Notes under the pieces: generated by a model | Told to the model about the DNA's origin: nothing | Database searches by the model: none | Seen by the model: only the letters and a program-made list of their open reading frames with translations | Source of the DNA: Gordonia sp. SID5947 | GTDB lineage: Bacteria; Actinomycetota; Actinomycetes; Mycobacteriales; Mycobacteriaceae | Reading direction: 5' to 3' | NCBI RefSeq assembly: GCF_009862785.1 | Contig: NZ_WWHU01000001.1 | Location: 3,162,001 to 3,226,000 of the forward strand | Length of the DNA: 64,000 nt | Part shown: positions 12,638 to 36,045 of the stretch, piece after piece | Position numbering within the stretch: position 1 is the stretch's first letter | Layout: each line of letters opens with the position of its first letter | Made by a program: the position numbers and the translations under genes

Positions 12638-13399
12638 ATGATCAATGCCGTCGGCGTGCCGCGGTCCGTCCTCGTACTGGGCGGGAGTTCCGAGATCGGG
12701 TTGGCCATCACCGAGGAATACCTGAAGAAGGGCCCGATGCGGGTGGTGCTGGCCACCGTCCCGGGCGACCCGGCCGCCGCAGCGGCAGCGGAGAAGATGA
12801 CCAAGGCCGGCGCGTCGAGTGTCGAGCTGATCGACTTCGATGCACTCTCGCCGGAAACCCATCCGGCGGTAGTCGACAAGGCATTCGCCGGTGGCGACAT
12901 CGACGTGGCGATCGTGGCCTTCGGTATCCAGCCCGACGACGAGAAGGCCTGGCAGGACCAGAAGACCGCGGTCACCGAGGCGGGGATCAACTACACCGCC
13001 GCGGTGTCGGTCGGCGTGCTGCTCGGCGAGAAGATGCGTGCGCAGGGCTTCGGACAGATCATCGCGATGAGCTCGGTCGCCGGTGAGCGCGTGCGGCGCA
13101 GCAACTTTGTCTACGGTTCCACCAAGGCGGGTCTGGACGGCTTCTATCTCGGCCTCGGCGACGCCTTGCGGCCGTTCGGCATCCGTGTGCTGGTGATCCG
13201 GCCGGGGCAGGTCCGCACCCGCCTGTCGGCACATGTGAAGGAAGCACCGATGACGGTCGAGAAGGAGGACGTCGGCCGCCTGGCCGTCGCGGCCGCCGAC
13301 AAGGGCAAGGAAATCGTCTGGGCGCCCGGACCGTTCCGCTTCGTGATGATGATCCTGCGGCACATCCCGCGTCCGATCTTCCGTCGACTGCCCATCTGA
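12638..13399 (+). CDS. dprE2: Decaprenylphosphoryl-2-keto-ribose reductase DprE2
   Basis: A 253-residue short-chain dehydrogenase that uses NADH to reduce the DprE1 product, yielding decaprenylphosphoryl-arabinose. The Rossmann start [14 protein letters not shown], catalytic Ser region [10 protein letters not shown], and active-site pair Tyr/Lys in [10 protein letters not shown] are all present; length equals the M. tuberculosis enzyme (254). AAAGGAG lies about 10 bp before ATG 12638. It overlaps in function and transcription with dprE1 upstream, and aftA starts 2 bp after its stop. Confidence 0.95.
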
Positions 13400-18920: not shown

Positions 18921-21900
18921 GTGCCCGAGCAGACGGTTCGACGAGCCAAGATCGTCGCGATCATCACCGGCCTGCTCGGTCTCTTCATGGCACTGGCCAC
19001 CCCACTCATGCCGGTCCAACAGACCACGGCGCAGATCAACTGGCCTCAGGACAACACCCTCGGATCGGTGGCCGCCCCGCTGATCAGTTATGTACCCATC
19101 GATTTCGACGCGCACGTCCCGTGCAGCGCCATCGATCAACTCGGCGACGACGAATCGGTACTGCTGTCGACGACGCCCAAAGAGGCCGAGAAATCTGCCG
19201 AACGCGGTCTGTTCATACGCAAGACGGGACAGCCGGGTGATCCAGCCGCCCGACAGACCGTCGAGGTGGTCATCCGCAATCTCCCGCTGGTGTCGGCGAC
19301 GGTGGCGCAGGTCCGACAGCAGGACTGTCGCGAGATCGTCGTGCACGCCGATTCCGAAGCGGTCTCGGCCGAGTTCGTCGGAATGCACAACGACCAGGGC
19401 GAACCACTCGACGGCACCACCGCGGGCCGGGAGTCCAACACCTACGACAAGGACCAGCGACCGCAGGTCACCGGGCTGTTCACCGATCTCTCCGGGCCGG
19501 CCGCCAGTCAGCCCGGGCTCAGCGCTCACGCCACCATCGACTCCCGCTACTCGACGGCTCCGACCATCCTGAAGTGGCTCGTCCTCATCGTCGGCATCAT
19601 CTGCACCCTGTTGTCGCTGGCTGCGCTCGCCGTCCTCGACTCCACCGACGGCCGCAAGCACCGGCGCATCCTCCCGGCACGCTGGTGGCGACTCAACGCT
19701 CGCGACTACGTGGTCATCGGCGCGCTGATCGTATGGCACTTCATCGGACCCAACACCTCCGACGACGGCTATCTGCTGACCATGGCCCGCGTCGCGCAGA
19801 ACGCGCAGTACACGGCCAACTACTTCCGCTGGTACGGCGCGCCCGAAGCGCCGTTCGGCTGGTACTACCAGGTCTTCGGGCTCCTCAGTCATGTCAGCGT
19901 GGCGAGCCCGTGGATGCGCATCCCCGCGTTGATCTGCGGCATCGGCGTCTGGCTCATCATCAGCCACGAGGTGCTACCGAGACTCGGTCGTGCCGCCATC
20001 ACCCGGCCCTCCGTCGCGTGGACCGCCGCCTTCGTTTTTCTGGTGTCGTGGTTTCCGTTCGACAACGGGCTGCGCCCGGAACCGATCATCTGTCTCGGTG
20101 CCCTGCTCACGTGGTGTTCGGTTGAGCGTGCCATCGCGACCGGACGCCTGCTGCCCGCCGCGGTGGCTTGTCTCATCGGCGCGTTCAGCCTCGCCGCCGG
20201 CCCGACCGGGCTCCTCGCCGTAGCTGCGCTCATCGCCGGTGCACGACCGATGATCCTGGCATTGATCAAGCGCGCGAAGGTCATCGGCGGCGGCCGTTGG
20301 GCCTACGTCGCCCTCGTGGCGCCGATTCTCGCCGCCGGCACGTTCATCATCTTCGTCGTGTTCTCCAATCTCACACTGAGATCATTCGTCGAGGCGTCGC
20401 AGATGAAGACGGCCCTCGGACCATCCGGCCACTGGTACAACGAGATCAATCGCTACTCGTCATTGTTCGCCTTCTCTGCCGATGGCTCCATCGCCCGACG
20501 GTTCGCCGTCCTCGCGATGATCCTGGGCCTGGTGGTGTCCGCGGCGATGTTGATCCGCCGGTCCCGCATCCCGGGCACCGCGCTGGGTCCGTCCCGACGT
20601 ATCGTCGGGATCACCTTCGCGTCGTTGGTGTTCCTGATGTTCACCCCGACAAAGTGGACACACCATTTCGGGGTGTTCGCCGGACTCGGAGCGGCACTCG
20701 CCGCCATCGCGGCGATCGCGGCGAGCAATCAGATCATGCATTCCAGGCGCAACCGCACACTGTTCGCGGCGCTGGTCCTGTTCATCGCCGGCCTGGCATT
20801 CACCGCACCCAACTCGTATTACTACTCGTCCGCCTGGGGCATGCCCTGGGGTGTCATGCAGGTCTCCATCGCCGGCGTGAACCTGGCAAATCTGCTCCTC
20901 TACGCCGCACTCGCACTCCTGTTGGCGGCCTTGTGGTTCCACTTCCGTGAGCCGTTCACCGGTGCCGATCCCGCCGACGAGACCCCCGACCGCTCTGCTC
21001 GGCCGTGGTACCGCCGTGCCGCGACGGTACCGGCCTCGGCCCCTTGGCCTTCGTCAGCGCGGCGGTGGTGATCTTCGCCCTGGTGACCGCGATGTTTGCC
21101 GGCATCCAGCAGAGTTCGTCGTACTCGGTACCGCGCGCGAACCTGGAGGCCCTCGCGGGCGAGGAATGCGGTATGGCAGACAAGGTCTGGGTGGAGACGG
21201 ACCCCAGCCGCTACCAGCTCACCCCCGTCGACGGATCGATCACCGACCCGCTGGCAGGCCCGCCGACCGCACCAGCCGACGCGACCCAGCCGGCCACCAC
21301 CGGCTTCACCGCGAATGGTGTGGACGAGGATCTCGAGACCACCGCGAGTGAGGGTTCGCTGGGCGTCCTGGCGGGCAGCGCAGTCTCGTCACCGGACGTG
21401 CTGACTGCCAACCCCGGCGGTACCGGTGGTGGCGTGGAGACGACCGCCGGAGTCAACGGCAGTTACGCACAACTCCCGTTCTTCCTCGATCCGGCGAAAA
21501 CACCGGTGATGGGCTCCTATTCGAAGACCGATCAGGTCCCCGCTCGCCTGACATCGGCGTGGTACACGTTGCCCGCTGATTTCAAGGAGCGCCCCTTGCT
21601 GGCGTTCTCGGTCGCCGGTCTGTTCGACAATCCGGACCTGTTGCTCGAGTACACCACCGACCCGGTCGGACCGGGCACCCGCGACGCGTCGTTGCATGCC
21701 ACCGGCGACACCGAGATGATCGACCCCGGCCCGCGACCATCGTGGCGAAACGTCCGTGTCACCACTGATTCGCTCCCGGACGACATCACCGCGGTACGAA
21801 TCGTCGCGACCGACGACAACCTCTCGGAGGACCGCTTCATCGTGGTCACCCCGCCTCGGCTCCCCGAGATGCAGACGCTGCAGCAGGTGGTCGGGCGTGA

Positions 21901-22249
21901 GGACCCGGTGCACGTCGATTGGACCTCCGGCCTCTCCTTCCCGTGCCAACGACCGTTCACCCACAAGGACGGGGTCGCCGAGATCCCGAAGTGGCGGATC
22001 AAGCCGGGGTCCGACCTGGCGGCCGCGGTCTCGGCATGGCAGGACTCCTTCGGCGGAGGGCCCCTGGGCTGGATCGAGGTCTCTCAGCAGGCCACCGCGA
22101 TGTCCACCTACCTCCAAGACGACATCGGGCGTGACTGGGGCGCCCTCGAGCGGTACACACCGTACGGCGACGTGACCACCCTTGCCGATGTCGACACCGG
22201 TACCGCGACCCGTAGCGGGCTGTGGAGTCCCGCGCCGATCCGTCACTGA
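18921..22249 (+). CDS. embC: Arabinosyltransferase EmbC (one apparent frameshift)
   Basis: GT-C enzyme of about 1,109 residues transferring arabinofuranose from decaprenylphosphoryl-arabinose; in mycobacteria EmbC builds lipoarabinomannan. TM1 (VAIITGLLGLFMALATPLMP), a periplasmic lectin-like domain, then the catalytic loop NTSDDGYLLTMARV, some fifteen helices, and a C-terminal carbohydrate-binding domain. It is EmbC rather than EmbA/B by GPSRRIVGITFASL, FPCQRPFTHKDGV and the end TRSGLWSPAPIRH. The frame breaks near residue 706; one missing C in the run 21040-21043 joins SAP to LAFVSAAVV. Start is GTG, possibly leaderless. Confidence 0.92.
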
Positions 22250-22304
22250 CCGGGCAACCGGCCTTTTTCGACGATCGGTAGATGACGAGCTCCCCCGCCG
22301 ATCG

Positions 22305-22455
22305 AATAGGTGGCAACCTCCCCTCGCCGATCGAGTGGGCGACGAGCGCAGCGAGGAATCGTATCGAGATCACCACACCAGGTCTCGATACGGTCTCCGC
22401 GGACGCTCCGGGCCACTCGATCAACGGGGCCGGACGCTCGGGGCCACTCGATCAC
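22305..22455. repeat. Paired inverted intergenic repeat between embC and embB-2
   Basis: The 245-bp gap between the convergent embC and minus-strand embB genes holds a palindromic element. GTATCGAGA (22361-22369) pairs with TCTCGATAC (22383-22391). Outside these arms the sequences GATCGAGTGGGCGACGAGCG and CTCCGGGCCACTCGATCA are near-complementary, so two copies of one element face each other. A third partial copy, GGACGCTCGGGGCCACTCGA, follows at about 22433. The left arm includes GAGCGCAGCGAG, a 12-mer also present in the in-frame repeat of embB-2. It could end transcription in both directions. Confidence 0.7.
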
Positions 22456-22494
22456 CCGCAGAACATCAAGCAGCGCATGCGAATCGGCAGCAGC

Positions 22495-25400
22495 TCAGTT
22501 CTTGATCGCGCGCATCGGTCCTGGCGTCCACAGACCTCCGTGGACGTCGTCGGTGATCTTCAGTTCGGCCTCGACCTGAGGCTTGAGCGGTACCAGCCGC
22601 TGCAGACTGCCCCAGTCCCTCGCCCAGCTGTTACGCAGGTAGGAGGGGAGGACGACCGGACGCAACTCGTTCTCGACGATGCCGAGAGGGCCGCCGTAGT
22701 CGCCGGCCATCCATCGACGGGAGTTCACCCGCTCGCCCTCGGCGTCGGGCGTGACCCGCCACATCGGCGTCTCCAGCACCCCGTTGACCGCCGCGGCCGG
22801 TCGCTGACACGGAAAGGCCAGCGCCACCTCCCAGTCCAGCAACACCGGATCATCGCTACCCACCAGGGAATTCAGAGTCGTCATCTCCGTGACACGCGGC
22901 GGGGTGACCGCCAGCCACTGCTGGGAGTCCGTCGAGGTGTCGTCGGCGACGATCCGGGTGACCGTCGCGCGCGGCGGCACCTGATCGAGAGGCACCCGCA
23001 GATTGCGCCACTCGGGGTCGGTGTCGATGCCCAGCGGAACCACCGACGCCACGGTGGAGACGCGCCCGTCCGGCTCCACCCGGCCGAACTCGAGCCGCAC
23101 CTTCTGGCCCGGGTGCGTGACGGCGAGGTGGTCGACGTACTCGATCTTGCCCGCGACCGACATCGTGACCAGCGGCGCGTCATCGCTTCGGGGCGGGAGT
23201 TGATACCAGTCCGACGTCAGATGGCCTCGGCCAGAAGGCGACTGATAGGTACCGAGGACCGGGACCCGGCGCTGATCCAGACCGAACGGCAATCGCACCG
23301 ACGACCCGTTGACACCCTCGGTGGCGGTGGTGCCGCCACCCGTGTCGGCGGCACCTGCCGAGCCGCTCGGCTCTTCCTGCGCCGACGACGGATCCGTTTG
23401 GGAACGGTCCAGACCCGGGGAACTCTTGTCGGAGTCTGCCGACGAGTCCTCACCGGAGTCGGCCTCGCTCTCCAACTGCGTCGACACACCGTTGGGGTCA
23501 AAGCCGGTCATGCCTTGGCCGGCCAGCGTCGCGCCCGGCGACGGATTGTTCTGCCCGGCAACCTCGGCCGGTGCCAACAGGCCCTTGTTGGGATCTCCCT
23601 CGACCATGACCGCATCTGCCAGCGCGCACGGGTTGCCGCGCAGCGCATCGATGTTGGAGCTGGTCCACGACCACGAATCCTGTTGCGTCTGCGCCGCCTT
23701 GGCGAACGATACGAAGTTGAACAGCAGGACCACGGTGGAGATGATCGCCAGCGAATAGGTCGGCATCCGCTGGACGATGCTGCGGCCAGAATCTGTCTGC
23801 ACCGCAACAGGTTCGCCGCGCTGCGCACGCTGATCGTCACGGTAGTACTGCCAGACGCCGTACAGGGTGAGGAGTACCGCGACCGCCAGGATCGGGACGA
23901 AGAGTTCGATACCCGCCACGTTGGGTGTGTCGTCGGCCCAGGGGATGCCGTAACTGCCCACGTACCACCATTGATTGCGGCCGGCGAAGGCGACCGCGAG
24001 GGCGTATGCAGCGGCGGCTGCGATGAAGGTCCTGTTGCATCGACGACGCATCACGGACGGCTGGAGGAACACCGTCGCCGCAGCAGCGAGAACACCGGTG
24101 AGACAGGCGAATGCACCCATCTGGTGCGTGGCCTTGGTCGGGACGAACGCCAGTACCGCCACCGCACCGGAGGTGACTGCGACGAGACGCCAGAGCGGCG
24201 CGCTCGGCACACCCGGCACCCGACGCTTGCTCAGCAGCGTGAGAACGATGACGGCGACCGACAGGAATGTCACGAAGATGCCGACACGCCGGGCGATGGA
24301 ACCGTCGGGGGTCGGGTTCAACAGGATGTAGTACCGCATCGCCTCGGTCCACCATTCGTTGGTGGGACCGACGATGCCCTGCACCTTGATGCCCTCCCGG
24401 ATCGCCGCGAGGGGCTGGTCGGCGAAGATCTCGAAGAGCACCGCCAATCCTGCCGCCAGAATCGGCATCACCAGGGGTAGCAGGCCGTCACGCCGGGCAC
24501 GCCGACGCAGTCGCCGCAGCAGCGGTCGCAACGCCGCCAGCAACGGCAGGATCGCGATGGCGCCTGCCGGGTGGATCGTCAGCGTGAAGGCCGCCGACAG
24601 GACGGCCAGGGTCAGGGGGAACAATCGGCCGGTGGCGATCGATCGCTCGACCAGCACCCAGGTGAGCAGGATGCCGACGCTGAGCGCCGGCTCCACGCGC
24701 AGACCGTTGTTGAACGCCAACCACACCACCAGGAACCCGAGTGCCGCCGTCCATCGGGCGGCGTTCGACGACCGGACCGCGCGACCCAGACGGGGCAGCG
24801 CGGCGCGGCTGATCAGGAACCAGCCCGCCAACGCGAACAGCAACGGCAGCACTCGAAGCCACGGGGTGGCGGTACTCACCTGCATCCACAGCGCGAGATA
24901 GCGGTAGTGCCAGCCGAACGGGTCCTGCGGCGCACCGAAGTACCGGTAATAGTTGTCGAGATAGCCCGCACCGGGCGCCACGCGTCCCACGGTCACCTGA
25001 TAGCCGTCGTCGGCGGTGTTGCCTCCCACGAACAGCCACACCAGCAACACACCCGTGACCACCACATCAAGCGGCTTGATGCGCCACCACCGTTGCGCGC
25101 CGGCGCGGACCATGCGCCGTAACCGCCGCCCGTCGCGTGCGTCGAGCACAGCCAGCGCGATCATCGAGATGATCGTCGAGATCACACCGAGGATCAGCAA
25201 CGCACCCTTGAAGGTGGTGGGACTGGAGATGAATCGCGTGTCGATCGCCGATCGATACGAGAGGCCCTCCGTGGACACATCTTTCGGAAGGTCGGTGTAG
25301 ACGCCGATGATCTGCGGTCGCGCATTGGGGTCGTCGAGGCGGAAGCTCTGCGTTCCCGCACCGGGATCGACGCCTTCCACCGCACCGCGACTACCGGTGG

Positions 25401-25992
25401 TGTCCGCGTGGATGACCACGCGACATTGCGCATTCTGCTGCGCGGCGGCGCGAGGAACGTTCAGCAGCACCGCGTTTCGCTGCGTCACCAGCAGACGGTC
25501 GTGGGTGGCACGGACGAACAGGCCGACGGTACCCGCCTGGGCACCGTTCTCGGGAACGGTCGACAGCAGCACACCGCCCGCCGGGGGCAGATCGGCGGCG
25601 AGTCGGCACGGCACCGAGATGTCCATCGACACCGGCGCATACGACACATTGGGCGCCGCCACGTTCTGCACGACGCCGGCCCCATTCGGCCCGCTCGCTG
25701 CGCTCCCGGCGCCGGCCTCATTCGGCCCGCTCGCTGCGCTCCCGGCGCCGGCCTCATTCGGCCCGCTCGCTGCGCTCCCGGCGCCGGCCTGACCCTGGGG
25801 CCATTGCAGCTCACTCTTGGTGTAGGACACCGGCAGGAACGGAGCCGCGATCGCGAGCAGCACGCCGAGCGCACCGGCGACCACCGCGACGATCTTCGCG
25901 ACCTTGATGGTCCTGCTGTCCGGGGCGAAGCGCATGGATCGTGTCGTCTTCTGCTCTGCTGTCTTCGGTTCTGGCGTCTCGGGCTCAGTCAT
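22495..25992 (-). CDS. embB: EmbB-type arabinosyltransferase, second copy
   Basis: A 1,165-residue GT-C arabinosyltransferase. TM1 lies near residue 32-52, the catalytic Asp pair in NTADDGYQVTVGRV (near 328), some fifteen membrane helices end near 770, and a C-terminal carbohydrate-binding domain ends GGLWTPGPMRAIKN. That ending and FPCQRP place it in the EmbB branch with the plus-strand copy at 32728. Two oddities: a 36-residue Ala/Gly/Ser repeat insert at residues 68-103, and a long Ser/Glu/Asp/Thr-rich stretch around 830-900. It overlaps the preceding embA copy by 8 bp. Val stands where M. tuberculosis EmbB has Met306. Confidence 0.9.
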   Translation of the reverse strand: MTEPETPEPKTAEQKTTRSMRFAPDSRTIKVAKIVAVVAGALGVLLAIAAPFLPVSYTKSELQWPQGQAGAGSAASGPNEAGAGSAASGPNEAGAGSAASGPNGAGVVQNVAAPNVSYAPVSMDISVPCRLAADLPPAGGVLLSTVPENGAQAGTVGLFVRATHDRLLVTQRNAVLLNVPRAAAQQNAQCRVVIHADTTGSRGAVEGVDPGAGTQSFRLDDPNARPQIIGVYTDLPKDVSTEGLSYRSAIDTRFISSPTTFKGALLILGVISTIISMIALAVLDARDGRRLRRMVRAGAQRWWRIKPLDVVVTGVLLVWLFVGGNTADDGYQVTVGRVAPGAGYLDNYYRYFGAPQDPFGWHYRYLALWMQVSTATPWLRVLPLLFALAGWFLISRAALPRLGRAVRSSNAARWTAALGFLVVWLAFNNGLRVEPALSVGILLTWVLVERSIATGRLFPLTLAVLSAAFTLTIHPAGAIAILPLLAALRPLLRRLRRRARRDGLLPLVMPILAAGLAVLFEIFADQPLAAIREGIKVQGIVGPTNEWWTEAMRYYILLNPTPDGSIARRVGIFVTFLSVAVIVLTLLSKRRVPGVPSAPLWRLVAVTSGAVAVLAFVPTKATHQMGAFACLTGVLAAAATVFLQPSVMRRRCNRTFIAAAAAYALAVAFAGRNQWWYVGSYGIPWADDTPNVAGIELFVPILAVAVLLTLYGVWQYYRDDQRAQRGEPVAVQTDSGRSIVQRMPTYSLAIISTVVLLFNFVSFAKAAQTQQDSWSWTSSNIDALRGNPCALADAVMVEGDPNKGLLAPAEVAGQNNPSPGATLAGQGMTGFDPNGVSTQLESEADSGEDSSADSDKSSPGLDRSQTDPSSAQEEPSGSAGAADTGGGTTATEGVNGSSVRLPFGLDQRRVPVLGTYQSPSGRGHLTSDWYQLPPRSDDAPLVTMSVAGKIEYVDHLAVTHPGQKVRLEFGRVEPDGRVSTVASVVPLGIDTDPEWRNLRVPLDQVPPRATVTRIVADDTSTDSQQWLAVTPPRVTEMTTLNSLVGSDDPVLLDWEVALAFPCQRPAAAVNGVLETPMWRVTPDAEGERVNSRRWMAGDYGGPLGIVENELRPVVLPSYLRNSWARDWGSLQRLVPLKPQVEAELKITDDVHGGLWTPGPMRAIKN
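25684..25790. repeat. Three 36-bp in-frame tandem repeats in embB-2
   Basis: Three units start at 25684, 25720 and 25756 and are identical except for the final base. Each codes for a 12-residue unit like AGAGSAASGPNE in the first periplasmic loop. The other EmbB copy runs straight from LNWPQGNGVG to NVAAP at this point, so the repeat is an insertion at a precise site. The core GAGCGCAGCGAG on the minus strand also occurs in the intergenic repeat near 22343. Confidence 0.88.
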
Positions 25993-28900
25993 CTTGCGGC
26001 ACCACCCTGATCGATCCCGGTCGCGTCCATCCCCACGTCGTCGTGGTACCGGTGGTCACCTGTGCGGGTGTCGCATCCGCGACCAACGGCGACAAGCGCT
26101 GCAGCCCACCCCAATCGCGGAACCAGTCGTTCTCCAGGTAAGTGGCCATCGTCGTCGCACTGGTCAACGCCTCCGGCGTGGTGAGAATGCCACCGTTGAC
26201 CGAAGCCTGCCACGTCTTGGACTTGGAGTTGGTGGTCGTCTGGTCCGGCACGATACGCCAGCGGGGCACCTCGCTCACGCCGTCGCGCGTGCTCATCGGA
26301 TGCTGACACGGGAACTGACTGCCGACCGACAGATCGAGCAGCACCGGCGTCCGCGAACCGACGACGTCCTGCAATGTGTGCAGTTGCGGCGCCCGCGGCG
26401 GCGTGAACGCCAGCCATTGGTCCGGACTCACGTTGTCGTCGACGGCGACGATCCGCATGGCCGTGGCGCCACCGGGCACCGCTGTCATCGGGATACGCAG
26501 GTTCCGCCACGGCCGATTCGGCCTGCCCGGTCCCGGATCTATCGGCGTGTAGGCCTTGCCCACCTGCTTGAAACCACCGGCCGCATCGGTTCGACCGAAC
26601 TGCACCTGCAACGACCGCCCAGGGGTTGCGACGCCGTCCTGGTCGACCGAGAAGACCGGTCCGGCCGCCGTGATCACCAACAGCGGCGACGCATCGCGGG
26701 ACGGCAGCCGGTACCAGCCGGAGGTCAGTTCCGCGGTGCCGTTGTCGTGTCCGTAGCTGCCCAACACCGGCGTGGTCTTCGGGTCGAGGCCGAACGGCAG
26801 CGCCGCCGACGATCCGTTGATCGTCTTCGGCCCGGTGCCGCCGGTGGTACCGGGAGGCCCGCCGGTGACGACGAACGGGCGCGACAGGTCGCCAGAGGTG
26901 TTGATGGTGCCCGCTCCCAGCGATGTCGGGTCGGGCGTCAGGTCACCCGCCACACCGTCCGGGGTGAAGCCGGTGGATTCGCCGGCGAGCGCACGCGAGA
27001 TGTCGCGGGTTCCGATCGGCGCGAGTGCACCGAGGTTCGGGTTCTGTTCCAGGAGAACCTGATCGGCCATTCCACACGGATCGCCCGCGAGCGCACGGGT
27101 GTTGGCGTGAAAAGTGGTGTAGGTGTCCGAACGGTCCATCGCGGCTTTGGCGAACAACCCCATCTCACCGACCACCACGAGCGTGGCGATCACCAGCATG
27201 GGGGCCGACGCGACGGCGATCTGTGTGCGCGACAGGCGAGTCCGGTCACCGCGGACCTTTCCGCGCTCTGCGTCGACATCGATCCGCAGGTGATACCAGG
27301 TCGCGACTGCGAGCGCCAAGACGGTGAGCACCAGGAAGACCGACGACAACGGCGTCCCCGCCACCACCGGCGCCTTGTCGAACCACGAGATGCCGAAGTC
27401 GTACCCCCAGCCCCACGCGTTCTCACCCGCGACAGCGACCGCGCAGGCGAACAGCAGCACGGCGATGTACATCCACAGATTTCGTGGCGAACGCCGCGCC
27501 GATTGCGCGACGGCGACCGTCGCGACCGCAGCCATGGCCGCGCCGACGCCCGCGTAGATCCCGAACTGGACGGTCCACTTGGTGGGCGTGAACGACAACA
27601 ACAACACCGTCAGCAGGATCGAGCCGACGAGTCGCCACACCGGTCCGGGGTCGACACCGCGGATGTGCTTGCGACGCAACATCACCGCCAACGTCACAAA
27701 CAGTGCGGCGACCAGGAGCAACAGCGGTACGCGACGCACCAGCGAACCATCCTGGGTGGTCAGCGAGAGATAGTAGAAACGCAGGAGTTCCTGATACCAG
27801 GCCAGTGTCGGCCCCACGGTGTATCGAAGTCGCACCGCCTCGGCCACGTTGGCGAGCGTCTGGTCACGGAAGACCACGATGACCACCACCGCGAATGCCC
27901 CGGCCACCGGCGCGAGCAACGGGAGCATCCCGTTCTCGCGACGGCGGGTCCGGATGGTGCGCAACATCGGTCGCGATCCGGCGATGAGCATGGCGAGCGC
28001 GATCACGCCGTGCGGGGCCACCGCCAGGGTGAGGCCCGCGCTCAATGCCGCTCCCGCCGCCGGCAGCATCCGACGGGTGGCGACGGCCTGCTCGACCCCC
28101 CACCACGTGAGCAGCGATCCCAGCACGATGATTCCCTCGCTGCGCAACCCGCTGCACAGCGGCATCCAGAACGCCACGAACACCGCGGCGGCGGTGAACA
28201 TCGCCCACTGCGAGCGACGGACCGCACCACCCAGCCGTGGCAACAGGATCCGGCTCAGCACGAACCAGCTGATCAGTCCGGCCACCAGTGCGGGCAGTCT
28301 CATCCAGACGCCCGCCGTCGACACGGTCGACCAATGCGACAGAAAAGTGTAGTACCAGTCGAACGGCGCCTCGGGAATTCCGAAGAAACGGTAGTAGTTC
28401 GCGAGGTAGCCGGCATCGTGCGCGGTGCGGCCCATGTTGAGGATGTAGCCGTCGTCGGACGATCCGGCCCCGAGGAAGTGCCAGACGACGAGTGCCGCGG
28501 TCACCGCGATGTCGGCCGCACGCGGCGCGAACAGCCGCCGAAGGTCGAGGCGACCGATCCGGCGGTGATAACCGTTTCGTACATCGAGTACGGCGATCGC
28601 GACGAAGGAGATCGCCGCGGCGATCAGCCCGATGATCATCACGATGAGTTTGAGCACCGACGGTCCGGTGTCGAAGCGGTTGTCGATGTCGACGTGGACT
28701 GCCAGCCGATCGGCGGGGGCCCCTTCGCCGGCCGCCTGACGCACCGCGGCCGGGCGGAGCCCGGTGAAGACTCCCGACACCTGCGGTCGATCACCGGGAT
28801 CGCCGGCGACGGCCGGACCGAGCCCGACGAAGTGCGCCTCGGTCGCCGACGCCGACGCACGAACCGTCAGTCGGTCGCATCGGTTCAGGTCGGCGCGATC

Positions 28901-29275
28901 GGCACGGACCAGTTCCTTGCCGCGCATCGTCACCGAGACCGCCTGGCGGTCCGCGGTCACGAACAGTGCCTTGTTCGACGAGTTGCGCCCGGCAGACGGC
29001 ATGGTGGAGACCACAACGGTCGTCTCGTCGGCCGGCGTCTGCGCCAAAGCGCGACACCCGACGGTGACATCGAGTCCTGACGCCGTCTGAGCGACCAGGG
29101 GCGCCGTCACCGACGCGCTCGAGCCGATGGTCTCCTGGGGCCAGTCGATGGACGCGGTGTGCTGGCTGACCGGCAGCAATGGCGTCAGCACGGCAGCGAC
29201 GATCGCGACAAGTCCGGACACGATGGCGATCGCGGCCCAGACACGTGTGGGCGCTCGTCGGGAAGAGGCAGTCAT
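25985..29275 (-). CDS. embA: EmbA-type arabinosyltransferase, second copy
   Basis: A 1,096-residue GT-C enzyme of the EmbA branch (ends TTWGWTRPGSIRVVPQDD, like the M. tuberculosis EmbA ending GWGRPGPIR). TM1 is IAIVSGLVAIVAAVLTPLLP; catalytic loop SSDDGYILNMGR about residue 285, then helices such as GYLANYYRFFGIPEAPFDWY for donor/acceptor binding, FTPTKWTVQFGIYAG, and a C-terminal carbohydrate-binding domain with FPCQHPMSTRDGVSEVP. In mycobacteria EmbA works with EmbB to form the branched arabinan termini of arabinogalactan. First gene of a minus-strand embA-embB pair; divergent from its paralogue at 29370 across 94 bp. Confidence 0.92.
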   Translation of the reverse strand: MTASSRRAPTRVWAAIAIVSGLVAIVAAVLTPLLPVSQHTASIDWPQETIGSSASVTAPLVAQTASGLDVTVGCRALAQTPADETTVVVSTMPSAGRNSSNKALFVTADRQAVSVTMRGKELVRADRADLNRCDRLTVRASASATEAHFVGLGPAVAGDPGDRPQVSGVFTGLRPAAVRQAAGEGAPADRLAVHVDIDNRFDTGPSVLKLIVMIIGLIAAAISFVAIAVLDVRNGYHRRIGRLDLRRLFAPRAADIAVTAALVVWHFLGAGSSDDGYILNMGRTAHDAGYLANYYRFFGIPEAPFDWYYTFLSHWSTVSTAGVWMRLPALVAGLISWFVLSRILLPRLGGAVRRSQWAMFTAAAVFVAFWMPLCSGLRSEGIIVLGSLLTWWGVEQAVATRRMLPAAGAALSAGLTLAVAPHGVIALAMLIAGSRPMLRTIRTRRRENGMLPLLAPVAGAFAVVVIVVFRDQTLANVAEAVRLRYTVGPTLAWYQELLRFYYLSLTTQDGSLVRRVPLLLLVAALFVTLAVMLRRKHIRGVDPGPVWRLVGSILLTVLLLSFTPTKWTVQFGIYAGVGAAMAAVATVAVAQSARRSPRNLWMYIAVLLFACAVAVAGENAWGWGYDFGISWFDKAPVVAGTPLSSVFLVLTVLALAVATWYHLRIDVDAERGKVRGDRTRLSRTQIAVASAPMLVIATLVVVGEMGLFAKAAMDRSDTYTTFHANTRALAGDPCGMADQVLLEQNPNLGALAPIGTRDISRALAGESTGFTPDGVAGDLTPDPTSLGAGTINTSGDLSRPFVVTGGPPGTTGGTGPKTINGSSAALPFGLDPKTTPVLGSYGHDNGTAELTSGWYRLPSRDASPLLVITAAGPVFSVDQDGVATPGRSLQVQFGRTDAAGGFKQVGKAYTPIDPGPGRPNRPWRNLRIPMTAVPGGATAMRIVAVDDNVSPDQWLAFTPPRAPQLHTLQDVVGSRTPVLLDLSVGSQFPCQHPMSTRDGVSEVPRWRIVPDQTTTNSKSKTWQASVNGGILTTPEALTSATTMATYLENDWFRDWGGLQRLSPLVADATPAQVTTGTTTTWGWTRPGSIRVVPQDD

Positions 29276-29369
29276 CAGACGGTGACCCTAGTTGACGGGA
29301 AGAACCCTGTTGTAGCGCAGTCCGGGTCTGACTAGGTCCTCTCAGGGAAGTCCCATAACATCAGACATC
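29276..29369. promoter_or_regulatory. Shared promoter region of two divergent embA genes
   Basis: Only 94 bp separate the starts of the two embA paralogues (ATG 29275 minus, GTG 29370 plus), so both promoters must sit here or inside the genes. An imperfect dyad is visible: GACCCTAGTTGAC (29284-29296) against GTCTGACTAGGTC (29326-29338). A related CACTAGTTGAGG lies before embC at about 18859. A common regulator (for example an EmbR-like protein) is conceivable but not shown. Confidence 0.5.
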
Positions 29370-32300
29370 GTGCCTGTGACAGCCTCGAACGCTGCGCCCG
29401 ACGCCGCGCCGCCGACATCCAGGGTGTCTGTGGGCACCGTCCGTGCGGTCGCCGTCATAGCGGGCATCATCGGCATCGTCCTGTGCGCCATCACACCATT
29501 CCTCCCGGTCAAGGCCACCGACGCGTCATTCGACTGGCCTTCCGGGCAAGGTCTGTCGGCCGAGTCCGCCGACGTCGTCGCGCCCCTGATCGCCCAGACA
29601 CCGCAGGCCCTCGACGCCCGCATACCGTGCGGCGTGTTGTCGGAAATGCCCGCGGCCGGCGGCCTGGTCTTCGCGACGATGCCCACCAACGCGCCCAAGA
29701 GCAGGTCGTCAGCGCTCTACGTCAACGCGAACCGCACCACGGTGACGGTCACCTTCCGCAACACGGTGGCGGCAAGCGCCCCACGTGACCAACTGTCCGG
29801 ATGCTCACAGCTGCACATCTGGTCGGCTGCGACCGGACCCGGCGCACAATTCGTCGGCCTCGGCGAGTCGACCGTCCTCCCGCCGGACAAGCGTCCGCAG
29901 GTCGACGGCATCTTCACCGACCTCTCCACCCGGCAGGTGCAGTCGGCGGCCGATGCCGGTCTCCGTGTGCACGTCCAGATCGACAATCGCTACGTCAGCT
30001 CGCCCTCGGTTCTCAAGCTGGTGGTGATGGTGCTGGCCGTGATCGCGGTGCTCGTCGCACTGGTCGCGTTGTACCTGCTCGATCGGGCACACGGTCACCA
30101 CCGTCGCATCGGTAGGCGCGCCGACGGTGAGGACGGGCCGAGCCGCCTCGGCTCCTGGTGGCGCAGTCTCATCCCGCGCGCGTCCGACGTCGCGGTGACC
30201 CTCGTCCTGCTGATCTGGGCTCTGCTCGGGGCCGGAACCGCCGACGACGGCTACATCCTGAACATGGGACGCACGGCCGACGCGTCCGGCTATCTCGCGA
30301 ACTACTACCGCTGGTACGGCATACCCGAGGCCCCGTTCGACTGGTACTACAGCTTCCTTGCCCACTGGTCGTCGATCTCCCCGACGATTCTGTGGACACA
30401 CCTTCCGTCGCTGGCCGCGGGCCTCGTCTCCTGGTTCATCCTGAGCCGGGTGCTGCTGCCACGTCTGGGCGCAGGTGTCCGCCGCAGCGGATGGGCGGTG
30501 TGGGCCGCCGCACTGGTCTTCATCGCGTTCTGGCTCCCGTTCAACAGCGGCCTGCGCAGCGAGCCGATCATCGTGCTCGGTTCGCTGCTCACCTGGTGGG
30601 CAGCCGAACAGGCGATCGCCACCCGCCGCCTGTTCCCCGCCGCCCTCGGCGCGATCGCCGCAGGGTTCACCCTTGCGCTCGCCCCGCAGGGCGTGATCGC
30701 GGTGGCCATCCTCCTGGTGGCGGCTCGTCCCCTGCTGCACATCATGCTCGACCGTCGACGCGAGTCGGGCACGCTCGCACTCATCGCGCCGATGACGGCG
30801 GCCGGCCTCCTGGTGCTGATCGTGGTGTTCCGGGATCAGACATTGGCCACCGTGCTCGAGGCGATGAAGATCCGGTACCAGGTGGGACCGGTGATCAGCT
30901 GGCATCAGGAGTTCCTGCGTTACTACTTCATCTCGGTCACCACCGACGATGGCGCACTGACTCGACGCGTGCCGGTCCTGCTCCTGCTGGCCGGTCTGAT
31001 CGTGACGGTCGCGGTGATGCTGCGTCGCAACAAGATCCGTGCTGTCGATCCCGGCCCCACCTGGCGACTCATCGGCTCGATCGGCGTCACGCTGCTCCTG
31101 CTGGCCTTCACACCGACCAAGTGGACCATCCAGTTCGGCGTTTTCGCCGGACTCGCCGCCGCCATCGCCGCCACCGCCACCCTCGCGGTGGCCCAATCGG
31201 CGGCCCGCTCCGCGCGCAACCTGACCGTGTTCGTTTCCGGCCTGTTCTTCGCGCTCGCCGCCGCCATGGCGGGCTACAACGCCTGGCCGTTCGCCTATGA
31301 GTACGGGATCTCCTGGTTCGATCGGGCTCCGGTACTCGCCGGACGACCGGTGTCGACGCTGTTCCTGGTACTCGCCGTGATCACCGCGGTCATCGCGGTG
31401 TGGCAGCACCTGCGCCTGGACTACGTGGAGAACAAGGGCCTCACCCATACCGTCGACGGCGGAGGAGAGAGCAAGGCCGACCGTCGTCGACTCTTCCTGG
31501 CGTCGTCACCGATCGCGGTGATCGCCGGCCTGATGGTGGTGGCCGAACTCCTGGTGTTCGCGAAAGCCGCGGTGACCAGGTATCCGGCCAACACGGTGTT
31601 CTCCGAGAACGTGAGCGCGCTCCGCGGCGACGGTTGCGGCATGGCCGACGAGGTTCTCGTCGAGTCGGATCCCAACGCCGGGATGTTGGCGCCGGCCGAT
31701 GGGAAGTCGGTGTCCGCGGCTCTGCGTGGGACCGATCCCGTCGGATTCACGCCAGATGGGATTCCCAGCGACCTGTCCCCCGATCCGGGCAACCAGCGTC
31801 CTGGACAGATGAACGTATCGGCCAGTGTGTCCAGACCCTTCGCCATCACGGGTGGGCTCGGCGCGGGCACCACGGGAGGCACCGGACCCCGCACCGTGAA
31901 CGGGTCGACGGTCGCGCTTCCCTACGGACTCGACCCTTCGACGACCCCGGTCCTCGGCAGCTACGGTTATCCGGGCGAGGCGCACCTGACGACCGGTTGG
32001 TACCAGCTGCCCACGGTGCGCGCGACATCGCCACTGCTCGTGTTCAGTACGGCCGGTGCCGTATCGACGATCGACACCTTCGGCGTCCGGAACTTCGGGC
32101 AGAAGCTCGTCGTCCAGTTCGGACGTCCCGGCCCCGACGGATCGTTCACACAGATCGGACCGGACGTGCTGCCGATCGACCCGGGACCGGTCATCACCAA
32201 CCGACCCTGGCGCAACCTACGGGTGCCGATGAGTGCGGCGCCGCGCGCGGCCACCGCGATGCGTTTGTCGCTGCTGGACAACAATCTCGGACAGAGTCAG

Positions 32301-32738
32301 TTCATCGGTATCACCCCGCCGCGGGCGCCCCGGTTGCGGTCCCTGCAGGATGTCGTCGGCTCACAGTCACCGACACTGATCGACTTCACCGTCGGCGCAC
32401 ACTTCCCATGCCAACGGCCACTGCGGATCACCAACGGTGTCGCCGAGGTCCCGCAGTGGCGCATCCTCCCCGACTACCCACTGGCCAACTCGCAGTCCAA
32501 GACCTGGCAGTCGGGAGTCGACGGCGGACTGTTGTCGATCTCGGAGTCGACCACTTCGGCGCAGGCCGTGCCGACCTACCTCAAGGACGACTGGGCACGC
32601 GAGTGGGGAGCCCTCGAGCGTCTGACGCCGCTGGCCGAGGACGCGGGAGCGGCGCGGGTGACCACGTCGCAGACGACACAGTGGGGCTGGTCACGCGCCG
32701 GTTCGATCAGGGTGGAGCCACAATCAGATGACCAGTGA
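29370..32738 (+). CDS. embA: EmbA-type arabinosyltransferase, first copy
   Basis: A 1,122-residue GT-C enzyme of the EmbA branch. TM1 VAVIAGIIGIVLCAITPFLP, catalytic loop GTADDGYILNMGR near residue 294, then NYYRWYGIPEAPFDWYYSF, NSGLRSEPIIVLGSLLTWW, FTPTKWTIQFGVFAG, and C-terminal carbohydrate-binding domain with FPCQRPLRITNGVAEVP and the end QTTQWGWSRAGSIRVEP. It shares these blocks with the minus-strand EmbA copy. Start GTG 29370. It overlaps embB downstream by 11 bp, the usual embA-embB order, implying coupled translation of a functional pair in arabinogalactan synthesis. Confidence 0.93.
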   Translation: MPVTASNAAPDAAPPTSRVSVGTVRAVAVIAGIIGIVLCAITPFLPVKATDASFDWPSGQGLSAESADVVAPLIAQTPQALDARIPCGVLSEMPAAGGLVFATMPTNAPKSRSSALYVNANRTTVTVTFRNTVAASAPRDQLSGCSQLHIWSAATGPGAQFVGLGESTVLPPDKRPQVDGIFTDLSTRQVQSAADAGLRVHVQIDNRYVSSPSVLKLVVMVLAVIAVLVALVALYLLDRAHGHHRRIGRRADGEDGPSRLGSWWRSLIPRASDVAVTLVLLIWALLGAGTADDGYILNMGRTADASGYLANYYRWYGIPEAPFDWYYSFLAHWSSISPTILWTHLPSLAAGLVSWFILSRVLLPRLGAGVRRSGWAVWAAALVFIAFWLPFNSGLRSEPIIVLGSLLTWWAAEQAIATRRLFPAALGAIAAGFTLALAPQGVIAVAILLVAARPLLHIMLDRRRESGTLALIAPMTAAGLLVLIVVFRDQTLATVLEAMKIRYQVGPVISWHQEFLRYYFISVTTDDGALTRRVPVLLLLAGLIVTVAVMLRRNKIRAVDPGPTWRLIGSIGVTLLLLAFTPTKWTIQFGVFAGLAAAIAATATLAVAQSAARSARNLTVFVSGLFFALAAAMAGYNAWPFAYEYGISWFDRAPVLAGRPVSTLFLVLAVITAVIAVWQHLRLDYVENKGLTHTVDGGGESKADRRRLFLASSPIAVIAGLMVVAELLVFAKAAVTRYPANTVFSENVSALRGDGCGMADEVLVESDPNAGMLAPADGKSVSAALRGTDPVGFTPDGIPSDLSPDPGNQRPGQMNVSASVSRPFAITGGLGAGTTGGTGPRTVNGSTVALPYGLDPSTTPVLGSYGYPGEAHLTTGWYQLPTVRATSPLLVFSTAGAVSTIDTFGVRNFGQKLVVQFGRPGPDGSFTQIGPDVLPIDPGPVITNRPWRNLRVPMSAAPRAATAMRLSLLDNNLGQSQFIGITPPRAPRLRSLQDVVGSQSPTLIDFTVGAHFPCQRPLRITNGVAEVPQWRILPDYPLANSQSKTWQSGVDGGLLSISESTTSAQAVPTYLKDDWAREWGALERLTPLAEDAGAARVTTSQTTQWGWSRAGSIRVEPQSDDQ

Positions 32739-35700
32739 GACAGCGACCCCCGCCTCGGAGACCCGCTCCCGCAACTACCGCACGGCGAAGATCGTCGCCG
32801 TGGTGGCAGGTGTGCTCGGCTTCCTCGCGGCCATCATCACGCCACTGCTGCCGGTGAATCAGTCCACCGCGGAACTCAATTGGCCGCAGGGCAACGGTGT
32901 GGGCAATGTGGCCGCGCCCCTCGTCTCGTACGTCCCCATCGACATGGATGTCACGGTTCCGTGTTCACTGGCCGCGCAACTGCCCCGGGACGGCGGGCTC
33001 CTGCTCTCCACCATCCCGGAGGGCGGGCAGGATGCCGGCGCCCGCGCACTGATGATCCGGGCCACCGACGACGCACTGACCGTGACCGATCGCGACGTCG
33101 TGATCCTCAACACCGATCGCGCAGGCGCCCAGACGAATCCCGACTGCCGGATCATGTTCCACGCCGACGGCTCGGGCGTTTCGGCCCGTTTCGAGAACGC
33201 GCCCGGCGACGGACTGCACACGTTCTCGGTCGCCGATCAGGAGATGCGACCCCAGATCGTCGGTATCTACACCGATCTGCCCGAGTCCGCGCCGCGGGAC
33301 GGGTTGTCGGTGCACGCGACCATCGACACCCGCTATGTCAGCACGCCGTCGGCGCTGAAGCTCGCGGTGATCGTCATCGGCATCATCATGACGATCCTGT
33401 CGCTGATCGCGCTGGGTGTTCTCGATCGCCGGGACGGCAGGGGGCACAAGCGGTTCCTGCCGGCCGGCTGGTTCACCATTCGCGGCCCCGACGTCGCGGT
33501 GTTCCTCATCCTGGCCTTCTGGTGGTTCGCCGGGGCCAACACGTCCGATGACGGCTACAACTTCACCGTCGGCCGGATCGCCGGGGATGCGGGCTACGCG
33601 GACAACTACTTCCGCTATTTCGGCGTGCCACAGGACCCGTTCGGCTGGCATTTCCAGGTCATCGCCGCGATGACACACGTGAGCCTCGCCGCGCCGTGGA
33701 TGCGTCTGCCCGCCTTTCTCCTGGGGCTCCTCGGCTGGTGGCTCATCAGCCGAGAGGTGATCCCCCGCCTCGGCCGCGCGGTCCGCAACAGCACGCCCGC
33801 GGTGTGGTCGGCGGCCTTTGTCTTCCTGGCCATCTGGCTGCCCTACAACAACGGTCTGCGCCCCGAACCCGCCGAGGCCGTCGGCGCCCTGCTGACGTGG
33901 TGTTGCGTCGAGCGGGCGATAGCCACACGCCGGATGCTGCCGTACGCCATCGCGGTGGTGGTCGCGGCCTTCACCCTTGCACTCGCGCCCGGCGGGCTGA
34001 TGGCGGTCGCCGCGCTGCTCGCCGGTATCCGTCCGGTGGTCAAGACGTTGGTGACACGGCGCAAGCGGGACGGCCTGCTGCCCATGCTCGCCCCGGTCCT
34101 CGCCGCGGGAACCGCGGTGCTCTACCAGATCTTCTTCGACCAGCCACTGATGCCGCTGATCGTCGGCAACAAGGTCGCCACCGACGTCGGCCCGACGCTG
34201 GAGTGGTGGCAGGAACCGGTCCGGTACTACTACCTGATCCTGCCGACCGCCGACGGCACGCTCGCACGACGTTTCGGTGTGCTGCTGATGATCCTCTGCC
34301 TGGTCGTCGTGCTGCTCCGGCTCTTGCGTCGCGTGCATCCGAACGGCATTGCCCGCGCCCCGATCTGGCGCCTGATCGCGGTGATCCTCGGCACGATGTT
34401 CTTCATCGCCTTCACCCCCACCAAGTGGACGCATCATTTCGGCGTCTACGCGGGCATCGCGGCCGGTCTCGCCGCCGCCGCCGGCGCCATGATGGCCCCC
34501 GCCATTCTCCGATCGCGTCGCAACCGGACGTTCTTCGCGGCCGCCGTGCTGGCGGTGACCGCGATCTCGTTCACCGGCACCAACGGCTGGTGGTTCGTCG
34601 GTAGCTACGGAATCCCGTGGTGGGACCGCCCGCCGTCGATCGCCGGGATCAAGGTGGGCTGGGTCATCCTGGCATTCGCGGTGATCACCGCGTTGGTGGG
34701 TCTGTGGTTCCACTTCCGCGACGACTACGTCGACGAGAAGACCAGGACGCAGGGCGGGGACGGCTGGGCATCGAAGCTGAAGTTCTCACCGCTGCCGGTG
34801 ATCTCGGGACTCGTCGTGATCTTCATGGTGTTGTCGTTCGCCAAGGGCGGGTACGAGCAGCGTGACAGTTGGTCGTGGATGAAGTCGAATGCGCGCGCGA
34901 TGACCGGCAACGAATGCGCTCTCGCCAACGACGTTCTGGTGGAACAGGATCCCAACACCGGCCTGTTGCCGCCGGCCGCGGTCGACGGACGGCCGGCACC
35001 GAATGTCTCGGCGGCACTGGCCGGGACGGGTAACGGCCTACCCGACCCCGACGGTTTCACACCGAACGGCGTACCGAACCGGCTGTCCATCGACTCCACC
35101 GAGGAGCAGGACACCGCGACCTCGACGGCGCAGAACACCGCCCAGTCGGGCGCGGGCTCCGACGAATCCACTCAGACCACCGAGTCTGCGCAAGGTGGAA
35201 CCGAGGGCGGGCAGGGTGCGCGCGGTGTCAACGGCTCGACTGTGCGACTGCCGTTCGGGCTGAACCCGGCGAACACTCCGGTACTCGGTTCCTACGGCTC
35301 CCCCAGCGGGACCGGTTCGCTGACCACCGACTGGTACTCACTTCCCGAACGCAACGCCGACGCGCCACTGCTCACCATCGCCGCGGCCGGCTCGATACAG
35401 GCCGTCGACGGGCTCGGCGTGCAGCACAGCGGCCAGCAGGTCATCGTCCGGTTCGGCCGGACCGGGGCCGACGGTCGCGTCACCCCGGTCGGCGTGAGGT
35501 CGCCGATCGACATCGGCGAGGTACCCACCTGGCGGAATCTGCGGTTTCCGCTCGCCGACGCCCCGCCACGCGCCGACGTGGTACGGGTGGAGGTCAGTGA
35601 CACCGCTGGTGCACCGTCGGAATGGGTGGCGATCACGCCACCGCGGGTGACCCAGTTGCGCACTCTCAACGACGTCGTCGGGACCACCGATCCGGTCTTC

Positions 35701-36045
35701 ATCGACTGGCTACCGGGCATGGTCTTCCCGTGCCAGCAGCCGATGAAGGTTCGTGACGGTGTGCTCGAGGTACCGAAGTGGCGCATCATGCCCGACGCCG
35801 AAGCCACCCGAAAGAACAGCCAGACCTGGATGTCCGGCAAGGCGGGCGGTCCACTGGGCATCACCGAGGCGATGCTGACCCCGACCTTGCTCCCCACGTA
35901 TCTCCGCAACAACTGGGGACGAGACTGGGGTGGCCTGCAGCGGTTCGCCGAGATCGATCCGGCACCTCCGGCCGAGCTGGAGTTGGGCACCGCACGCCAT
36001 TCCGGGCTCTACAACCCGGCCCCGATGCGGTCGAGCGGGTACTGA
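32728..36045 (+). CDS. embB: EmbB-type arabinosyltransferase, first copy
   Basis: A 1,105-residue GT-C enzyme. TM1 IVAVVAGVLGFLAAIITPLL, catalytic loop NTSDDGYNFTVGRI near residue 275, NYFRYFGVPQDPFGWHF, NNGLRPEPAEAVGALLTW, FTPTKWTHHFGVYAG and the EmbB-like NGWWFVGSYGIPWW, then a C-terminal carbohydrate-binding domain (FPCQQPMKVRDGVLEVPKWR). Residue 281 is Val at the position of M. tuberculosis Met306, a major ethambutol-resistance site. An Asp/Glu/Ser/Gln-rich linker lies near residues 785-835. Because it follows embA with the normal overlap, I take this as the orthologous embB and the minus-strand copy as the extra one. Confidence 0.93.
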   Translation: MTSETATPASETRSRNYRTAKIVAVVAGVLGFLAAIITPLLPVNQSTAELNWPQGNGVGNVAAPLVSYVPIDMDVTVPCSLAAQLPRDGGLLLSTIPEGGQDAGARALMIRATDDALTVTDRDVVILNTDRAGAQTNPDCRIMFHADGSGVSARFENAPGDGLHTFSVADQEMRPQIVGIYTDLPESAPRDGLSVHATIDTRYVSTPSALKLAVIVIGIIMTILSLIALGVLDRRDGRGHKRFLPAGWFTIRGPDVAVFLILAFWWFAGANTSDDGYNFTVGRIAGDAGYADNYFRYFGVPQDPFGWHFQVIAAMTHVSLAAPWMRLPAFLLGLLGWWLISREVIPRLGRAVRNSTPAVWSAAFVFLAIWLPYNNGLRPEPAEAVGALLTWCCVERAIATRRMLPYAIAVVVAAFTLALAPGGLMAVAALLAGIRPVVKTLVTRRKRDGLLPMLAPVLAAGTAVLYQIFFDQPLMPLIVGNKVATDVGPTLEWWQEPVRYYYLILPTADGTLARRFGVLLMILCLVVVLLRLLRRVHPNGIARAPIWRLIAVILGTMFFIAFTPTKWTHHFGVYAGIAAGLAAAAGAMMAPAILRSRRNRTFFAAAVLAVTAISFTGTNGWWFVGSYGIPWWDRPPSIAGIKVGWVILAFAVITALVGLWFHFRDDYVDEKTRTQGGDGWASKLKFSPLPVISGLVVIFMVLSFAKGGYEQRDSWSWMKSNARAMTGNECALANDVLVEQDPNTGLLPPAAVDGRPAPNVSAALAGTGNGLPDPDGFTPNGVPNRLSIDSTEEQDTATSTAQNTAQSGAGSDESTQTTESAQGGTEGGQGARGVNGSTVRLPFGLNPANTPVLGSYGSPSGTGSLTTDWYSLPERNADAPLLTIAAAGSIQAVDGLGVQHSGQQVIVRFGRTGADGRVTPVGVRSPIDIGEVPTWRNLRFPLADAPPRADVVRVEVSDTAGAPSEWVAITPPRVTQLRTLNDVVGTTDPVFIDWLPGMVFPCQQPMKVRDGVLEVPKWRIMPDAEATRKNSQTWMSGKAGGPLGITEAMLTPTLLPTYLRNNWGRDWGGLQRFAEIDPAPPAELELGTARHSGLYNPAPMRSSGY

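Follow-up and report, generated by a model that had tools for sequence, protein, structure and literature searches.

Mycobacterium tuberculosis and M. smegmatis carry embCAB, whose products form an EmbA-EmbB heterodimer and an EmbC homodimer, and Corynebacterium glutamicum is described as having a single emb (PMC6053596). In the published account of M. smegmatis EmbB, the arabinose of the donor decaprenyl-phosphate-arabinose (DPA) sits between D285 and E313, R495 coordinates the DPA phosphate and Q431 makes another contact; purified EmbB is described there as working alone, and also as working with EmbA (PMC7305291). Here we describe the emb cluster of Gordonia sp. SID5947 (genome of 5.10 Mb in two contigs), located at 18921-36045 of a 64,000-nucleotide stretch of contig NZ_WWHU01000001.1 (positions 3,162,001 to 3,226,000; hereafter the window). 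Of the five emb genes in the cluster, four are intact and one, embC, is split; they stand in the order embC (+), embB2 (-), embA2 (-), embA1 (+) and embB1 (+). We put at about 0.55 the probability that the second pair, embA2-embB2, encodes an old, maintained second EmbA-EmbB complex of Gordonia in which EmbA handles the donor.

A PF04602 search of the source genome returned five matches, all of them the emb genes of this cluster. Each of embA1, embA2, embB1 and embB2 has all three Emb Pfam domains (PF17689, PF04602 and PF14896) above cut-off, and those of embC are spread over its two pieces. Residues are numbered as in M. smegmatis EmbB, mapped via the ungapped stretch of the 7bvc_B alignment. 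The features are as follows (aa, amino acids):

18921..21071, + strand: embC N-terminal piece, 716 aa, domains Arabino_trans_N and Arabinose_trans; the frame is lost near 20970-21070
21005..22249, + strand: embC C-terminal piece, 414 aa, in a different frame, with Arabino_trans_C; arabinogalactan (AG)-type loop not seen by eye in the translation
22495..25992, - strand: embB2, 1165 aa, EmbB of the second pair; D285/D286 retained, E313 and R495 both replaced by Q, Q431 by H and W578 by A
25985..29275, - strand: embA2, 1096 aa, EmbA of the second pair; D285/D286, E313 and R495 kept
29276..29369, no strand: divergent region between embA2 and embA1, 94 bp
29285..29290, - strand: TANNNT (-10-like, TAGGGT), 9 nucleotides before the embA2 ATG; putative leaderless-type promoter
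29356..29361, + strand: TANNNT (-10-like, TAACAT), 8 nucleotides before the embA1 GTG; putative leaderless-type promoter
29370..32738, + strand: embA1, 1122 aa, EmbA of the first pair; D285/D286, E313 and R495 kept
32728..36045, + strand: embB1, 1105 aa, EmbB of the first pair; D285/D286 retained, E313 replaced by Q, R495 by A and M292 by V

A sequence-only reading of this stretch had counted five full-length Emb proteins and sorted them into one EmbC, two EmbA and two EmbB. The count holds for A1, B1, A2 and B2 and fails for embC, which lies in two open reading frames (ORFs) in different frames; the sorting is supported, and the C-terminal tails behind it (GLWSPAPIRH, GWTRPGSIR, GWSRAGSIR, NPAPMR and TPGPMR) are as reported. 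The same is true of the 94 bp that set embA2 and embA1 apart and of the overlapping A-then-B order, with overlaps of 8 bp (pair 2) and 11 bp (pair 1). The two pairs have diverged considerably, with sequence identities of 54% between A1 and A2 and 48% between B1 and B2. The best solved relative of A1 and A2 is EmbA, and that of the embC N-terminal piece is EmbC. The AG-type C-terminal loop, given as S872-Q881 and as absent from EmbC in the published description (PMC7341804), has 15 residues in A1, A2, B1 and B2 of the source genome and 5-6 in all 25 other Gordonia EmbC rows.

Distribution, layout and upkeep of the second pair

A second EmbA-EmbB pair is usual in Gordonia. In a PF04602 survey of 59 same-genus genomes, 49 had at least five matches and 10 had three; G. 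alkaliphila and G. hirsuta show three emb genes only. Six matches were returned for 6 of the 59 genomes, and a renewed search of these found five places in three genomes and a larger number, with some matches split or partial, in the remaining three. As each of the six has just two EmbA-type genes, we counted five emb genes, and the idea that some Gordonia carry six was discarded. Among 271 genomes of the family from other genera, 12 reached five matches or more; this survey scored up to five candidates per genome, and its counts may include fragments. Searching five of those 12 genomes with EmbA2 gave best-scoring matches of 45-47% identity, no closer than the Embs of other genera. Three matches were found in each of 20 genomes from five genus groups holding Williamsia and Jongsikchunia records (assigned to these genera via shared sequence), and pair 2 was not found in the Williamsia genomes surveyed.

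The nearest named locus is that of Gordonia hankookensis, whose EmbA2 is 93% identical. Among the 120 listed of 1042 matches to the EmbA2 protein, named rows above 57% identity are Gordonia, save one unplaced Actinomycetota fragment; Williamsia proteins interleaved with Gordonia first-pair proteins come next, and the best named match from another genus is a Williamsia EmbA (57%), many of the listed rows being without a name. Where second-pair relatives have names, these are mostly "arabinosyltransferase domain-containing protein" or "(putative) arabinosyltransferase". A literature search that covered subscription journals thinly found no report of emb duplication in Gordonia.

Layouts were compared across the 29 named Gordonia loci in which an A2-B2 pair is found. 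The two genes are adjacent in all 29, across at least six contexts. Eleven loci have pair 2 inverted beside embA1, and 8 have it in tandem on the downstream side of embB1; in the other 10 it is away from the core genes, spread over at least four different neighbourhoods. The second pair is also away from the core in G. malaquae, G. hydrophobica and G. shandongensis, which lie outside the 29-locus count, and L105-L110 are the same records as L061, L054, L055, L066, L086 and L085 and add nothing to the counts. Ten neighbours of pair 2 were scanned for a cell-wall role and none was evident: five are dehydrogenases or oxidoreductases, one is a transporter, one CinA and one a DICT-EAL protein, and two are without a family.

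On the far side of the inverted pair, embC is visible in 10 of the 11 loci; the eleventh, from G. desulfuricans, is on a contig without embC. The inverted layout is no artefact, because ten other Gordonia loci show embC, inverted pair 2 and pair 1 together; the assembly artefact that would have refuted the sequence-only reading did not appear. In 33 of the 37 non-inverted loci measured, Williamsia included, embC and embA1 are separated by 26-191 bp, and thus pair 2 parted embA1-embB1 from embC in the inverted lineage. Gaps of 1.2-2.7 kb occur in G. malaquae (L071), G. zhenghanii (L091), G. spumicola (L093) and G. liuliyuniae (L094).

The ratio of nonsynonymous to synonymous substitution rates (dN/dS), calculated against G. 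hankookensis, is 0.088 for B2, 0.078 for A2, 0.070 for A1 and 0.067 for B1. All pieces fall at 0.05-0.09, so purifying selection acts on pair 2 about as strongly as on pair 1. Near the N-terminus of EmbB2, positions 25674-25790 hold 3.2 copies of a 36-bp unit that encode a GPNEAGAGSAAS-type repeat.

Leaderless promoters are common in actinobacteria, and the placement of the TANNNT elements would fit such promoters for both embA2 and embA1. Candidate elements, sought post hoc and without a shuffled control, stand at the expected place before embA1 in 11 and before embA2 in 7 of the 12 inverted loci (the source counted). In the inverted loci without one, the start has probably been mis-estimated. 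A sigma-70 scan of 21900-29700 found no promoter (0.7 expected).

Donor-site residues of EmbA and EmbB

The glycosyltransferase C-type (GT-C) DDx motif, D285/D286, is kept in all five source proteins and in every other row save one partial G. aichiensis embA frame. The donor contacts E313 and R495 are both replaced in all EmbB proteins that were examined from Gordonia, Williamsia and Jongsikchunia, and the EmbA of these genera keeps them, one partial row apart. This loss was absent from the sequence-only reading. In detail, E313 is Q in both source EmbBs (whose E313/R495 states are Q/A in B1 and Q/Q in B2), in 32 of 32 other Gordonia B1, in 29 of 29 B2, in all 17 EmbB rows of the Williamsia group (which include records titled Kitasatospora arboriphila and Gordonia jinhuaensis) and in the one Jongsikchunia EmbB. 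E is present in 29 of 29 EmbA2 and in 33 of 34 EmbA1 (the exception is the partial G. aichiensis frame); the 8 Tsukamurella and 2 Mycobacterium EmbB have it too, as do all EmbC. In the G. aichiensis locus L088, embA is divided between ORFs of 819 and 716 aa that overlap.

At the R495 position, B1 has A in 32 of 32, B2 has Q in 18 and N in 11 of 29, the Williamsia-group EmbB has A in 14 and S in 3 of 17, and that of Jongsikchunia has S. Every EmbA row has R or K (R in all 29 EmbA2, R or K in all 34 EmbA1), and Gordonia EmbC has K; Tsukamurella EmbC has Q at this position in 8 of 8 loci. A further set of 29 Emb ORFs from 14 additional regions and 12 other genera (47 ORFs minus 18 that repeat named loci) has E at E313 and R or K at R495 without exception.

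The DD motif, N630, W633 and P641 are retained in 29 of 29 B2 and in the source B2, and W578 is W in the source B1 and A in the source B2, as in 18 of 29 other B2. The position M292, counterpart of M306 in M. tuberculosis, carries V in every EmbB of Gordonia and the Williamsia group, both source copies included. It is named as a resistance hotspot in the account of M. smegmatis EmbB (PMC7305291). As a description bearing on the different ethambutol sensitivity that the sequence-only reading had suggested, the two source EmbBs have V at M292 and Q at E313 in common and differ at W578.

Age of the pair and competing explanations

A1 and A2 group with mycobacterial EmbA with support of 100. In careful single-gene trees (37 rows each, 14 of them pair 2), A2 forms one clade (100/99) and so does B2 (100/100), and pair 2 lies outside Gordonia pair 1 plus Williamsia; a 238-row tree, shown without support values, likewise lists the A2 rows together and the B2 rows together. 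The minus-strand proteins stay with EmbA and with the EmbB group of Gordonia in these trees, not outside them. A concatenated A+B alignment (39 rows) rejects a clade made up of Gordonia pairs 1 and 2 only (approximately unbiased test, p-AU 0.0059), and on the strength of this test the pair duplication would predate the Gordonia-Williamsia split. The trees and the concatenated test bear out the earlier suggestion of an old duplication of the whole pair. Two records stand apart by name: the embCAB proteins of L057, titled Kitasatospora arboriphila NRRL B-24581, lie among Williamsia in the tree and the record is probably mislabelled or contaminated, and the Emb proteins of L066 (Gordonia jinhuaensis) group with Williamsia rather than Gordonia.

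Pair 2 occurs in two types. Type II, with A578 and Q495, is found in 18 named loci and the source genome, and type I, with W578 and N495, in 11 named loci. In the pair-2 data type I is one side of a branch with support of 100. As one clade, type I is rejected by rpoB, a single-gene tree (p 0.002; p 0.024 with amarae left out), and by the core emb genes, in whose alignment nine taxa are without most of embC (p 0.016). The pair-2 tree and the core tree (C, A1 and B1; 28 taxa) reject each other. Transfer within the genus, or the sorting of two ancient copies, would explain this conflict; none of six genomes checked held both types.

The reading that we favour combines these observations. Pair 2 is an ancient paralogue of the arabinogalactan pair embA-embB that would have been born before Gordonia and Williamsia separated; most Gordonia keep it, and it is missing from the Williamsia genomes surveyed. 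Within Gordonia it has been relocated and, as a unit of two genes, probably handed from lineage to lineage; in the source genome it lies inverted between embC and embA1, with a promoter-like element for each pair. The partners are most likely A2 with B2 and A1 with B1; the two resulting membrane complexes of EmbA and EmbB would both use DPA to extend the arabinan of arabinogalactan, with EmbC serving lipoarabinomannan. Because EmbB has lost donor-holding residues in both complexes and EmbA has kept them, EmbA is probably the donor-using subunit, and EmbB may mainly handle the acceptor. Gene content, paralogy, residue states, contexts and low dN/dS are observations; complexes, substrates, subunit roles and promoters are inferred.

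Several observations weigh against this reading. The date of the duplication hangs on the concatenated test, pair 2 has a long stem branch, and the single genes leave the Gordonia-only alternative standing (EmbA p 0.19, EmbB p 0.056). Gordonia and mycobacterial EmbB are apart in the best tree, and a joint group is not rejected (AU p 0.12 and 0.35). B1 and B2 score slightly higher to solved EmbC than to solved EmbB (939 versus 921 bits for B1, 755.3 versus 754.7 for B2), and their EmbB label, as we apply it, draws on operon order, C-terminal tail and AG-type loop. Both keep a lysine at the R493 position that could serve the phosphate. The donor contact Q431 is no better kept in EmbA than in EmbB (A in B1, H in 29 of 29 B2, A in EmbA as well) and so does not single out EmbB. 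Finally, the 10 Gordonia genomes with just three matches mean that pair 2 is dispensable in some species.

The arrangement itself had been taken as an inverted duplication at the locus, and two divergent pairs around 94 bp, with the same overlapping A-then-B order, do look like one. Pair 2 is, however, inverted, tandem or elsewhere depending on the species (tandem in 8 and elsewhere in 10 of the 29 named loci), its origin appears to predate the Gordonia-Williamsia split, and the low identity of the copies would be hard to reconcile with an event in this lineage. With A2 and B2 clades spanning the genus, a local inverted duplication is very improbable, and we rejected it on the clades and the varied layouts. 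That the arrangement is an assembly artefact is scarcely credible: the assembly does have an excess of frame breaks (see below), but ten other Gordonia records have identical order and strands. Horizontal transfer of pair 2 from an unsampled relative near the Gordonia-Williamsia-Jongsikchunia stem, followed by spread inside the genus, is rather unlikely, although it would account for the branching outside Gordonia pair 1 plus Williamsia, the several unrelated contexts, the conflict of the two types with rpoB and core emb genes, and the three matches only in the Williamsia-group genomes surveyed. EmbB2 shares the Q at E313 and the loss of R495 with Gordonia, Williamsia and Jongsikchunia EmbB, so any source would belong to that lineage, and the nearest named relatives among the matches listed are Gordonia, then Williamsia. 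The suggestion that one pair was acquired would thus apply at most within Gordonia or to such an unsampled relative.

A different account concerns function. EmbB2 might be a donor-dead partner that stabilises or regulates EmbA2, with pair 2 buffering arabinan synthesis (dose or stress) and making no new linkage. The replacements at E313, R495 (Q or N) and Q431 in 29 of 29 B2, the A at W578 in 18 of 29 and the source, and the three matches only in 10 of 59 genomes would suit this account, but the retained DD motif, N630, W633 and P641 and the purifying selection on B2 speak against it, and we give the account a minor chance of being right. Going further than the old, maintained second complex that we favour, one may tentatively suppose a role swap in the Gordonia-Williamsia-Jongsikchunia lineage (E313 to Q, R495 to A, S, Q or N, with EmbA as donor user), after which most Gordonia would have two asymmetric complexes building different arabinan. 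The second would be a mobile two-gene unit with its own promoter, perhaps giving surface variation against arabinan-cutting phages or epibionts. A Gordonia phage and an epibiont of Gordonia are both described as encoding arabinan-degrading enzyme families (PMC10115798); a link to such enemies is speculation.

The split embC, neighbouring genes and comparison with known systems

The break in embC falls at about 20970-21070. Among 48 embC-type ORFs in other named loci, 42 cover both pieces and 6 end at the locus edge. We compared frame breaks between 200 kb of the source genome and 200 kb of G. hankookensis. Raw two-frame matches numbered 21 of 86 G. hankookensis genes against the source genome and 8 of 103 in the reverse direction, and identities are low, which suggests that shadow ORFs make up many of them; at 90% identity or more, 5 of 86 genes were split in the source genome versus 0 of 103 in reverse. 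The five include embC and a DprE1-like gene. Because embC is intact in relatives and frame breaks are in excess, the break is most likely a sequencing or assembly error, and the organism's embC would be intact. The split of the DprE1-like gene is probably another such error. A genuinely broken embC was judged unlikely, as other genes, the DprE1-like gene among them, are split in the same way. Upstream of embC are:

11169-11774 and 11771-12586: DprE1-like gene, split, with FAD_binding_4 and then the ALO domain
12638-13399: short-chain dehydrogenase, in the place of dprE2
13402..15339, + strand: aftA, with Pfam AftA_N and AftA_C

The names dprE1 and dprE2 are our assumption from Pfam matches and mycobacterial gene order.

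The Gordonia Embs are the same three-domain proteins as those of embCAB in M. tuberculosis and M. smegmatis. Shared with that system are the DD motif, an AG-type loop that A and B have and C lacks, and the grouping of EmbA at 100. So is the position of aftA, which lies upstream of the emb genes in mycobacteria as well. Unlike mycobacterial embCAB, Gordonia has a second AB pair, which lies between embC and embA1 on the opposite strand, so that embC is not directly followed by embA on one strand; and unlike M. smegmatis EmbB, both EmbBs of the source lack the donor contacts E313 and R495. The emb of C. glutamicum belongs to the same family, with one gene versus five in the source genome, and C. 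glutamicum was the only one of 14 control genomes with a PF04602 match. Compared with the second pairs of other Gordonia, with A2/B2 relatives in 29 named loci, the source pair is of type II, like 18 of the 29 (11 are type I), and inverted, a position that varies among them. A lineage in which every sampled EmbB lacks two donor contacts while EmbA keeps both makes the division of labour within the EmbA-EmbB heterodimer testable, with Gordonia, two pairs in most species and one in some, as a natural contrast.

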